23,123 nt of DNA from positions 1,746 to 24,868 of the IMG/VR virus record IMGVR_UViG_3300030389_000128; one strand, written 5' to 3'. The notes under the pieces were generated by a model, which was not told where the DNA came from, ran no database searches, and worked only from the letters and a program-made list of their open reading frames with translations. Shown here in pieces: positions 19,766-23,047 of the stretch. Position 1 is the first letter of the stretch, and each line of letters starts with the position of its first letter. The translations under genes were made by a program, and so were the position numbers. Source of the DNA: a virus.

Positions 19766-20106
19766 TAGGGTTCAAATACTTCTCTAAAAGAACAGGTTAG
19801 TGTAACTCTATTTAAAAAAGGAATAGCAGTATTGTAAGACAAACAAACAAAGTTTTTTGTTACGTTTTCATTTGGAACGAGAAAAGTAAATGACGCACCA
19901 TCTGTAATTCTTGCATTAAGAAAATTAATAGCAGTTGTAGAATCTGTCTGAGATAAATCAAATTTTAAATTTAAAGTTATAGGATTTTGATTCAATCCCT
20001 CTGTTAACCTCTGCTCAAAACCATCTCCAAAACTTATAACATTAACTGCTGGTTGTCTTGTAATGGTGTAATTATATTTAGGATTAGCAATAGGAAAAGC
20101 TGCCAT
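19765..20106 (-). CDS. M: Minor tail protein M
   Basis: This encodes 113 residues (lambda M: 109). The segment VISFGDGFEQRLTEGLNQNP, then ITLNLKFDLS and the C-terminus TLTCSFREVFEP match the phage minor tail family: the FGDG(F/Y)EQR motif followed by GLN and a beta-rich body. M joins L and the tape-measure end at the tail tip. The start overlaps the tape measure stop (TAATG), and the stop overlaps the L start (TAATG). There is no signal peptide; the residues expected for the family are present. Confidence 0.92.
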   Translation of the reverse strand: MAAFPIANPKYNYTITRQPAVNVISFGDGFEQRLTEGLNQNPITLNLKFDLSQTDSTTAINFLNARITDGASFTFLVPNENVTKNFVCLSYNTAIPFLNRVTLTCSFREVFEP

Positions 20107-22475
20107 TAGTTTAATAAACCTCCAACTCTTTTTTCATTGATTATTACAGCTTGAACTGCTGCTGCAAGCTGTTCACCAAATTCATTAGCACTTTGCTGAT
20201 CTCCTTCAACAGAAGAACCAGAAGCATCTACATTTACTACGATATTTGTTGAACCACCAAGCATTTCATTAGGTGTAATAGTTCCAGAAACACCTGGGCT
20301 AAATAACTCAGGGCCACGTTCACCTACTAAATAACTTCCGCCTTTCATAACAGGGCCACCATTGGCTCTCGGACCAATAGTCATATCAGTAAATCGACTT
20401 GGAGTTTTTACATCATATAAACTTTGACCAGGACTTACATTATAAGGATTACCGCCAAAATTAAATCCAAAAAATTTAAATCCTATTCCTAATATTTGCA
20501 TTTGTATTTGTTTTGCAATCATCTTTGCAGCCATATCTAAGAAATGATCTGCTGTACGCATAAATAAATTACGCAATGCTTCTTGAGCACTCATTGAACC
20601 TTTTATTAAACCTTTAAATGATTCTCCAAAAGCATCTCCAACTGTTTCTGCCAATGATGTTAAACGATTTATGGGATCAGCTAAAGCTTCTAATTCATCT
20701 CTTACCATGGCAATATTTTTTGTAAGCTTTTCACCTAATGCCCTTTCTAGAGCTAAATCTAACTGTCGAACACCCTCTGTTCTCTCTTCAATTTTCTGTA
20801 AGCTATCAACTCTTTCATCTCTTAGTTTTTCTGGTGTTATAGTTTTTCCAGATATATTAAGTGATCCAACTATCCCACCTGGATTATTTGCAACATTACT
20901 AAGAAATCTGTCGGAAAAACTAACTTTATCTTTATTACCAATTTGTCTTGTTTTTTCAGCTTGAATAACCGCTTCTTGTAATCTTTTTTGAACTTTTAAA
21001 CTACCTTCAGTTCTTAAAGCCTGTCTTAATTGATCTGCTTTAGCTATACCTATTTTATCTTCGGCTGTTTTTATATCATCTAATAATTGAACATTTGTTT
21101 TTAATCCTTTTACTAAGTCAAAAGTTGCTTCATCACCAAATGTAATTAATAAAGATTTTCTGACATTTGCATCAAAAGCTGCAAAACTTTGTGCCGCTTT
21201 TAACGCTTCTTGTTTTGATATACCTAATTGTTTACCTAATTGACTTATACCTTTTGAGGTAAAGAACGAACTACCGCCTGCTGCTTTGATAGAAACATTT
21301 AATTTATCTACTGATTTTTGAAATTCTCTAGTCTCTGCAATTTTTGTAGCAATCGCAGTACCAGCTATAGACAAACCAAATCCAAATGGGCCTCCTAATG
21401 CTCCACCAACTGCACCACCGATACCACCACCTAAAGCACCTCCAATACCTTGACCAAATAATAAAGGAAAACCTCCACCAATAAGAGCATTACTTAATCC
21501 ACCAGAAATTCTTCCTGCTCTACCTCTTGAATTAGCAAACACCCCTCTAGGATTTGCACCTGTACCAATACCTAATTTACCTAAAGGCCCAGGTCTAACT
21601 GGCCCTATTGGTTGAGAATAGGCTTGATTTCCAAAAGCTTGTATTCCTTGTGCTTGATTTTGAGCAACTATTGTACTTATTTTTTTTGTATCAGCTTGTA
21701 TTTTTTTAGCGTTTTTATTAAATTCCTTAAAACCACCACCTAATTTTTCACGATTAGATCCAGCAGCAACAATTTCTCTCATTTGTTGCGAAGCTGCAAT
21801 ATTAGATAAAACTCTTCCTTTAAATACAGATTCAGCTTGCCCTGGTCCAATTCCACGACCACCAAGAGCTTGAACTTTTGCTGCACTAACAGCTTGTGCT
21901 GTTTGTCTATTTAGTTCTCCTTGTATTAATAATTTTTCATTTTGTTTTGCTGCTGATCTTTGTTCTAAAGATAATAAAGCTTCTTGTAATCTAATTTCAT
22001 CTCTTTTTAAGGCTAAAGTTCTTTCTAATTTTTCTCCGACAGGAGATGTCTGACCTAATAAAGATAAAGACTTAAATTTTGGATCAATTCTATTTCTTGA
22101 ACTCTCTGCAACATTTCTCCTAACTCGATTACTACTTGAGGATTGAGCAACACCAAATCTTCTAGTTTCGATCTCTTTTAGAATTCGAGCTTCTTCTTTT
22201 AAAGCAGTATTTAATTGGTTTTGTGCTCTTAACAACTCTTCACCAGCTTTTCTAAAAGCATTAGTTCCTATAGCTGCTTCATTTAAATTTTTTCGTGCTT
22301 CTCGTACAGAGCTATTTAATCTATTAAAGTTTGCTTCATAAGCATTTGCACTTTGTCTTAATTTTGCATTAGTATCATCAATAATTTTTGAAGTAGCTTT
22401 TATATCTTTATTAAGTGTTTTTAATGCTCTTGCATTTTTTATGGCTACAGCAATATCTACGTTATAATTAGCCAC
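20106..22475 (-). CDS. H: Tail tape measure protein, lambda H-like
   Basis: This encodes 789 residues from GTG 22475, the only good start: T ends 31 nt earlier. The N-terminal third is coiled-coil (DIAVAIKNARALKTLNKDIK, LRQSANAYEANFNRLNSSV, EELLRAQNQLNTALKEEARI). A Gly-rich hydrophobic region (about 325-375, with GGALGGGIGGAVGGALGGPF) may insert in the host membrane during DNA entry. The C-terminus (ANGGPVMKGGSYLVGERGPE, then LFSPGVSG) is typical of tape measures. It sets tail length: at about 0.15 nm per residue this predicts a tail of roughly 120 nm. G and the G-T product chaperone it. Confidence 0.94.
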   Translation of the reverse strand: MANYNVDIAVAIKNARALKTLNKDIKATSKIIDDTNAKLRQSANAYEANFNRLNSSVREARKNLNEAAIGTNAFRKAGEELLRAQNQLNTALKEEARILKEIETRRFGVAQSSSSNRVRRNVAESSRNRIDPKFKSLSLLGQTSPVGEKLERTLALKRDEIRLQEALLSLEQRSAAKQNEKLLIQGELNRQTAQAVSAAKVQALGGRGIGPGQAESVFKGRVLSNIAASQQMREIVAAGSNREKLGGGFKEFNKNAKKIQADTKKISTIVAQNQAQGIQAFGNQAYSQPIGPVRPGPLGKLGIGTGANPRGVFANSRGRAGRISGGLSNALIGGGFPLLFGQGIGGALGGGIGGAVGGALGGPFGFGLSIAGTAIATKIAETREFQKSVDKLNVSIKAAGGSSFFTSKGISQLGKQLGISKQEALKAAQSFAAFDANVRKSLLITFGDEATFDLVKGLKTNVQLLDDIKTAEDKIGIAKADQLRQALRTEGSLKVQKRLQEAVIQAEKTRQIGNKDKVSFSDRFLSNVANNPGGIVGSLNISGKTITPEKLRDERVDSLQKIEERTEGVRQLDLALERALGEKLTKNIAMVRDELEALADPINRLTSLAETVGDAFGESFKGLIKGSMSAQEALRNLFMRTADHFLDMAAKMIAKQIQMQILGIGFKFFGFNFGGNPYNVSPGQSLYDVKTPSRFTDMTIGPRANGGPVMKGGSYLVGERGPELFSPGVSGTITPNEMLGGSTNIVVNVDASGSSVEGDQQSANEFGEQLAAAVQAVIINEKRVGGLLN

Positions 22476-22506: not shown

Positions 22507-22701
22507 TTACCTTCTTTTGCCTCGTAAAGCACTAGATCTTTGTGCTTGTTCTTTTTGTTTTTCATATTCTTCACTTTCAATTTCTGCAAAAGCAGCCCAA
22601 CCTATCATCTCTTCAATAGTAAGAGTCTGACATAACTCAGCAACAGTTTTATGTAATTGTTTTGCTAAAGAGAATAAAAACTGCCAATCTTTATTAGCTT
22701 T
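22507..22701 (-). CDS. T: T domain of the tail assembly chaperone, read by frameshift
   Basis: This 64-codon frame has no ATG, GTG or TTG before its conserved core (first ATG at about codon 32) and begins after a TGA inside the G gene. It therefore needs a shift from the G frame, +1 or equivalently -2. It reads KANKDWQFLFSLAKQLHKTV, then AELCQTLTIEEMIGWAAFAE, and ends in a basic RSSALRGKRR. The TVAEL ... T-x-E-E-x-x-G-W-x-A pattern is typical of T/G-T domains that bind the tape measure. The frame lies between G and H, exactly where T is expected. The fused product would be about 179 residues. Confidence 0.8.
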   Translation of the reverse strand, partial: KANKDWQFLFSLAKQLHKTVAELCQTLTIEEMIGWAAFAEIESEEYEKQKEQAQRSSALRGKRR

Positions 22702-22702
22702 T
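22694..22702 (-). other. Candidate +1 (or -2) translational frameshift site
   Basis: On the minus strand the end of G reads TTG AAA AGC TAA. The AAAA run (22702-22699) lets tRNA-Lys move from AAA to the overlapping AAA one base on, placing the ribosome in the T frame (next codon GCT) just before the G stop TAA. The nearby stop could favour slippage. The exact site and direction (+1 or -2) cannot be fixed from sequence alone. Confidence 0.55.
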
Positions 22703-23047
22703 CAAATCGGCTTTAGCCTCTTTTACCTCCTTATCAGCACCAGCGTTAACCATTGCTAATTGTATTTCTTCAAGAACAGATGATTGAATCTCTCTTCTTA
22801 ATGAAGCTTTATCTCCATCTTGAAAAAGTCTTGTACCATCTTTATCTAAGGCTTTCTCTATCATCATTAACAATGCATAATCATTTAAATCCTCAGAACT
22901 ACTTTTTTTCATTATGCTTTCTCTTTCTGCAATAGTTAATGGATGCCAATAAATGCTAAGAATAATTTCATCATCTTGTTTTACATCATATTTGTAGAGT
23001 TGAGAAACTCCAAACTTGTTTCTTAAAAGGTCAACTGCTCTAGTCAT
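22694..23047 (-). CDS. G: Tail assembly chaperone G
   Basis: This encodes 117 residues. It begins MTRAVDLLRNKFGVSQLYKY, with LSIYWHPLTIAERESIMKKS in the middle and an acidic/basic helical C-terminus (NAGADKEVKEAKADLKS). The first part, a basic/hydrophobic start followed by a beta-rich domain with W-x-P-L-T-x-x-E, matches the G-type chaperones that precede the tape measure in lambda-like tails. G makes up most of the chaperone coat on H; a minor G-T fusion comes from the frameshift near its end. The start is preceded by a hairpin and T-run, with no Shine-Dalgarno visible. Confidence 0.82.
   Translation of the reverse strand: MTRAVDLLRNKFGVSQLYKYDVKQDDEIILSIYWHPLTIAERESIMKKSSSEDLNDYALLMMIEKALDKDGTRLFQDGDKASLRREIQSSVLEEIQLAMVNAGADKEVKEAKADLKS

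Follow-up and report, generated by a model that had tools for sequence, protein, structure and literature searches.

A probable programmed +1 frameshift at AAA_AGC in the tail chaperone genes of uncultured marine phages, among relatives in which the direction of shifting appears to have switched

In phage lambda, ribosomes pass from the tail gene G into T by a -1 slip on GGGAAAG. The tail region of an uncultured marine virus raises the question of how, and in which direction, ribosomes would enter a T frame whose phase relative to G is not that of lambda. The window, that is the whole stretch of DNA analysed here (23,123 nucleotides), lies at the end of a virus record of 24,868 bases (IMGVR_UViG_3300030389_000128), with the junction of the two genes near the contig end. 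The original prediction placed a slip on AAAA followed by AGC, ahead of the stop codon of G. The features needed for the argument are as follows:

22694..23047, minus strand: gene G, tail assembly chaperone by PHROG matches and synteny, 117 aa, made by standard translation
22507..22698, minus strand: T part of the putative G–T fusion, in +1 phase, running from GCT (22698-22696) after the slip to TAA (22509-22507)
20106..22475, minus strand: tape measure gene, GTG start, next after T (PHROG 10574, tail length tape measure, E 1e-12)
22702..22704, minus strand: TGA stop in the T frame directly before the slip site, confining the shift to TTG AAA AGC
22697..22702, minus strand: candidate slip site AAA_AGC, with P-site Lys codon AAA at 22702-22700 and A-site AGC at 22699-22697; pairing after a +1 slip would be with AAA at 22701-22699
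22694..22696, minus strand: TAA stop of G, following closely on the slip site in the window though not in all relatives

The 3' end of G reads GAT TTG AAA AGC TAA, and the T frame, which is +1 relative to G, is open past its TGA as AAA GCT AAT AAA GAT TGG and onwards to its own TAA. G matches PHROG 20784 (E 4e-23) and PHROG 344, tail assembly chaperone (E 9e-5), and T matches PHROG 337, tail protein (E 9e-6); a Pfam search of both returned nothing above the cut-off. G precedes the tape measure gene in the window and its relatives, and in the relative L368 it also follows the tail terminator. Beyond the tape measure, the genes have matches to minor tail, tail assembly and J proteins of the lambda type. 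Gene position, relatedness to known chaperones and a T without a start of its own in a frame other than that of G all point to a lambda-type chaperone pair, in which a short G stands before the tape measure and T is reached only by a frameshift near the end of G. Their homology to gpG and gpGT of lambda suggests the same chaperone role here. The predicted arrangement, a G–T pair with T lying between G and the tape measure, is thus borne out by PHROG matches, synteny and the tape measure start at 22475. The G of the window shares at most 35% identity with the G of cultured cyanophages, and a tRNA gene scan of the window found none.

The phase of T was followed through relatives by IMG/VR protein scans with the G of the window, of the single-cell virus MH327491 and of the MED4-117, HTVC202P, KBS-S-2A, L352 and L364 types. 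With GenBank isolates added, G and T were both scorable at 519 loci, a few contigs having been retrieved twice. T lies in the +1 phase at 325 of these, in the -1 phase at 194 and in the same frame as G at none. The first set of relatives shared the phase of the window in 81 cases out of 81, and within the window's own clade, made up of the window and MH327491 types, T is +1 in 162 of 162. The phase difference originally read as +1 or -2 is therefore kept throughout the +1 groups (325/325), and a search for the same-frame or -1 relatives that would have counted against it found no close relative of the first kind and, within the window's clade, none of the second. An identical junction occurs in a 41,291-bp phage contig of the Prochlorococcus sp. 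AG-418-M08 single-cell assembly, which carries terminase, portal, capsid and tail genes. With a window taken from a metagenomic virus contig, and a site close to the contig end, a sequencing or assembly error might be thought to have split a single G–T gene or a -1 pair; the probability of this is negligible, and sequencing error is excluded, given that phase and junction recur in hundreds of contigs, in MH327491 and in the Prochlorococcus single-cell phage contig. The distant -1 relatives, which have conserved slip sites of their own, likewise speak for an evolutionary switch and not for an error in the window.

The occurrence of the same junction in the AG-418-M08 phage contig makes Prochlorococcus a likely host for part of the window's clade, and at least one of these marine phages probably infects it. 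The 41,291-bp contig, L368 (QCMG01000013.1; also IMG/VR IMGVR_UViG_2716884409_000001), belongs to a Prochlorococcus single-cell genome in GTDB and probably represents a phage caught in an infected cell. Among cultured relatives in GenBank no +1 form was found, and a T query against GenBank phages gave, beyond MH327491, only weak Moraxella phage matches. The -1 loci include the cultured KBS-S-2A, S-H1, MED4-117, HTVC202P and S-2L, and many have the heptamer A_AAA_AAC, which is confined to -1 relatives. The cyanophages KBS-S-2A and S-H1 and the pelagiphage HTVC202P are homologous to the window pair in both G and T, but they belong to the -1 relatives, which use A_AAA_AAC. From these comparisons it appears that uncultured marine phages and their freshwater relatives fuse two overlapping tail-assembly genes by a +1 shift, whereas their cultured cousins do so by a -1 shift.

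All 325 of the +1 loci have an in-frame AAA AGN near the end of G, with AGC in 313, AGT in 8, AGG in 2 and AGA in 2, so that the proposed AAAA with AGC behind it holds well beyond the window; alignment of the junction, which had been put forward as a check, found both the AAAA and the phase conserved. The flanking codons vary: ATG, TTA, TTG, CTG, TCC, GCT and others stand before the site, and a stop or many sense codons after it. In the moderate-GC +1 groups the Lys codons just upstream in G are divided between AAA (133) and AAG (165) whilst the slip codon is AAA in 163 of 163, as re-pairing of tRNA-Lys on AAA_A would demand. A slippery heptamer of the -1 form X_XXY_YYZ with T in the -1 phase is absent, the phase being +1 at all 325 loci.

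Phase alone is the same for a +1 and a -2 shift. Long-distance upstream Shine–Dalgarno-like stretches accompany backward shifts in other systems, and such a stretch lies far upstream of the site in the window's clade. A -2 shift is used by phage Mu (PMC5009743), and here it would give a fusion one residue longer (LKKANKDW or LKSANKDW). After a -2 slip, though, the Lys tRNA would meet TGA, TAA, CTA, CCA, GCA or TCA, depending on the relative, and a Ser tRNA coming from AGC would meet AAA; one base forward, AAA meets AAA in 325 of 325. A +1 shift is preferred because it alone permits full re-pairing of tRNA-Lys in every relative, and the -2 reading is accordingly improbable. The A run bears on a further possibility, that RNA polymerase slips on it and part of the mRNA carries both genes in one frame. 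A runs do serve transcriptional realignment in some bacterial genes, yet realignment is implicated for runs of more than 7 to 9 (PMC3711429) and the run here is of 4 A at 242 loci and 5 A at 83. Polymerase slippage would also leave the invariant G after the run unexplained, and it is the less probable of the two.

T stands in the +1 phase and the P-site codon can re-pair one base forward, as a +1 frameshift with P-site re-pairing would require, and we regard it as very probable, on comparative grounds, that the tail chaperone pair uses a programmed +1 frameshift at AAA_AGC, with an upstream hairpin probably favouring the slip in the window's clade. We infer that a minority of ribosomes would shift, peptidyl-tRNA-Lys moving from AAA (22702-22700) to the overlapping AAA (22701-22699) with AGC waiting in the A site, and that translation would resume at GCT in the T frame. 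The products would be G (117 aa) and a G–T fusion with the junction ...Leu-Lys-Ala-Asn-Lys-Asp-Trp; the junction peptide first proposed, Lys-Ala-Asn-Lys-Asp-Trp, is consistent with a +1 slip at AAA.

Several other elements around the site were considered as part of the signal. The stop of G indeed lies 3 nt beyond the slip in the window, as had been pointed out, but this is a local feature: in many relatives it is one to several codons further downstream. A role for the stop codon of the prfB type was rejected on these grounds. No downstream RNA structure was found; an alignment fold gave the upstream hairpin only, and the downstream stretches fold about as well as shuffled sequences. In the window's clade AGC is rare, at about 3 per 1000 codons and 4% of Ser codons, and the +1 codons GCT and GCA are common, at about 46 per 1000 each, as expected for +1 sites. 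Slow decoding of AGC does not follow from this, however: the Ala codon of T that overlaps AGC may account for part of its constraint, AGU, presumably decoded by the same tRNA, is a common codon, and in the other +1 groups AGC reaches about 15 to 17 per 1000 codons and so is not rare. AAA AGC is not avoided in other genes of the clade (12 seen, 12.8 expected), and the hexamer by itself may therefore be a weak site.

Two further elements lie upstream of the slip codon:

22709..22718, minus strand: GGCUAAAGCC, predicted 3-bp hairpin with UAAA loop, a candidate +1 stimulator ending 6 nt before the slip codon
22725..22732, minus strand: AAGGAGGT, internal Shine–Dalgarno-like stretch close to the 3' end of G and 22 nt upstream of the slip codon

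GGC-UAAA-GCC (22718-22709) is almost invariant in the window's clade despite the rare codons it entails (of the Ala codons, about 4% are GCC), and position -16 carries G in this clade irrespective of whether the codon is GAG, CAG or AAG. A scan by DNA pattern that excluded the hairpin stretch recovered the element in most junctions, with the loop variants UAAA, AAAA, CAAA and AGAA. In junctions of the GGC type the stem is fixed, and the fold of the 12-nt stretch outranks about 99.5% of synonymous alternatives (median p 0.005). Folding in the AGC type seldom reaches significance (median p 0.15), and only about 8 of 20 have A-U as the outer pair. By the GGC-type result the hairpin is under selection at synonymous positions in the window's clade. 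It has only 3 bp, and no clean covariation was seen in the stem. The other two of the three +1 groups have no such fold, the hairpin being limited to the window's clade, where it probably favours the forward slip from its place 6 nt behind the slip codon.

The same scan also brought out a sister lineage of the +1 clade, less rich in AT, in which AGC...GCN with GAAA, GAAG or GGAA loops stands in the same place as GGC-UAAA-GCC; the members, among them L530, L531, L534, L535, L539 and L541, have GC-GAAA-GC, GC-GAAG-GC or GC-GGAA-GC. These loops are ones that we take to be unusually stable tetraloops, and they may compensate for the weaker outer pair.

The closest parallel comes from yeast. In ABP140 a stem-loop with its base 6 nt upstream of the +1 heptamer raises shifting from 40 to 60%; the effect is lost with one extra spacer codon, and the stem-loop aids only sites at which the P-site tRNA re-pairs (PMC12661321). 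The same combination, a stem-loop base 6 nt upstream with synonymous constraint, is found here in the window's clade only. The agreement in direction, spacing and re-pairing is striking, and by analogy suggests a similar function for the window's hairpin. More generally, the yeast sites of Ty1 and ABP140 (both CUU_AGG_C) and of EST3 (CUU_AGU_U) resemble AAA_AGC in that the P-site tRNA can re-pair one base forward and the A-site codon starts with AG. They differ in the eukaryotic ribosome, in the P-site codon and in the ABP140 stem-loop, which is larger and experimentally proven, and they share no descent with it. Bacterial prfB (CUU_UGA_C with a Shine–Dalgarno sequence) is likewise a +1 site with P-site re-pairing and an upstream element (PMC3711429). 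In prfB, however, the shift occurs at a stop codon with the Shine–Dalgarno sequence very close, whereas in the window the waiting codon would be a sense codon, with a dispensable stop and the Shine–Dalgarno-like stretch 22 nt away.

Enrichment of that stretch, AAGGAGGT, over synonymous alternatives is confined to the window's clade, and its position is not fixed. Being specific to this clade, 22 nt off and variable in place, it was rejected as a general signal of stimulation of the Shine–Dalgarno type. It might instead be taken to serve translation of T from its own start codon, or by reinitiation after the stop of G, and separate tail chaperone frames are indeed predicted in some phages (EA1 cluster, PMC6856279). 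No start codon lies at a suitable distance from it, though, and the independent start that was looked for did not emerge: among the relatives compared there is no conserved start ahead of the conserved residues of T. In line with the original observation that no start precedes the conserved core, the first ATG, GTG or TTG of T in the window's clade usually falls at residue 26 or 31, well within that core, and the Trp at residue 5, 98% conserved, lies upstream of any start. Furthermore, the slip site is under synonymous constraint and relatives join the same genes through -1 sites. Independent translation of T is thus very unlikely, and fusion by a +1 shift remains by far the better reading.

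The relationship between the two directions was addressed with a tree of 41 representatives, built with the last 12 residues of G omitted; its root is not fixed and its deep branches are long. The tree requires the direction to change between +1 and -1 at least four times, with supported branches forcing three of these changes, and a single +1 clade is rejected (AU p 0.001); a first tree of 43 representatives gave the same count of changes. Given the long deep branches and unfixed root, the count is of changes and not of gains or losses. The clearest case is that of the L352-type +1 phages, which are nested within the -1 KBS-S-2A lineage, with G 73% identical in the closest pair compared. From this nesting, -1 shifting on A_AAA_AAC was there replaced by +1 shifting on AAA_AGC, apparently through an indel and base changes at the junction. 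The direction of the shift thus appears, from the tree, to have switched several times with the fused protein unchanged. It is possible, if on balance somewhat doubtful, that the +1 shift at AAA_AGC is driven by the hairpin 6 nt behind it pulling on the mRNA, as a bacterial counterpart of ABP140, and that AAA_AGN arose more than once amid the switching between -1 and +1.

Tail chaperone frameshifts set the ratio of G to G–T that tail assembly requires. They are -1, -2 or +1 depending on the phage, that of Mu being -2 and that of the haloarchaeal virus HSTV-2 very likely +1 (PMC5009743). PRFect, trained on SEA-PHAGES annotations that are mostly tail chaperones, drew on 350 forward sites and also used a motif of four like bases for these (PMC10885494). 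HSTV-2, Mu and the forward SEA-PHAGES sites are therefore the same type of gene pair with a shift other than -1, and since +1 tail chaperone shifts were already on record the kind of shift is known. The claim that this would be an uncommon type stands insofar as +1 shifts are a minority among tail chaperones, though one with precedent (PMC5009743). A literature search for AAA AGC frameshifts in phages found no relevant published case, the HSTV-2 slip site lying outside the comparison. Within the searches made, what is new is an invariant AAA_AGN forward site in hundreds of phages, marine and freshwater, a direction that switched repeatedly in one homologous pair, and a candidate upstream hairpin. 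A homologous pair that uses either direction lets the reversal of a programmed frameshift be studied as a natural experiment, and a hairpin at yeast-like spacing offers a bacterial test of whether structure behind the ribosome promotes +1 shifting.

Some observations on neighbouring groups and genes may be added. In phages of the MED4-117 type (L170-L249) the -1 junction reads AAC NYA AAG GAA TCY TAA, with no A_AAA_AAC heptamer, and the slip site is not obvious. In the AG-418-M08 contig the major tail protein gene (L527:16922-17353, minus strand; PHROG 10528, E 2e-24) adjoins the terminase gene, in contrast to lambda, where its place is after the tail terminator and before G. In annotations of these phages T is mostly left out. 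In the isolates S-H1, KBS-S-2A, MED4-117, MED4-184, HTVC202P, HTVC026P and S-2L (L083-L089), all with T in the -1 phase, T forms part of no annotated joined gene, and the gap between G and the tape measure is either empty or, in S-H1, filled by a small separate hypothetical gene.
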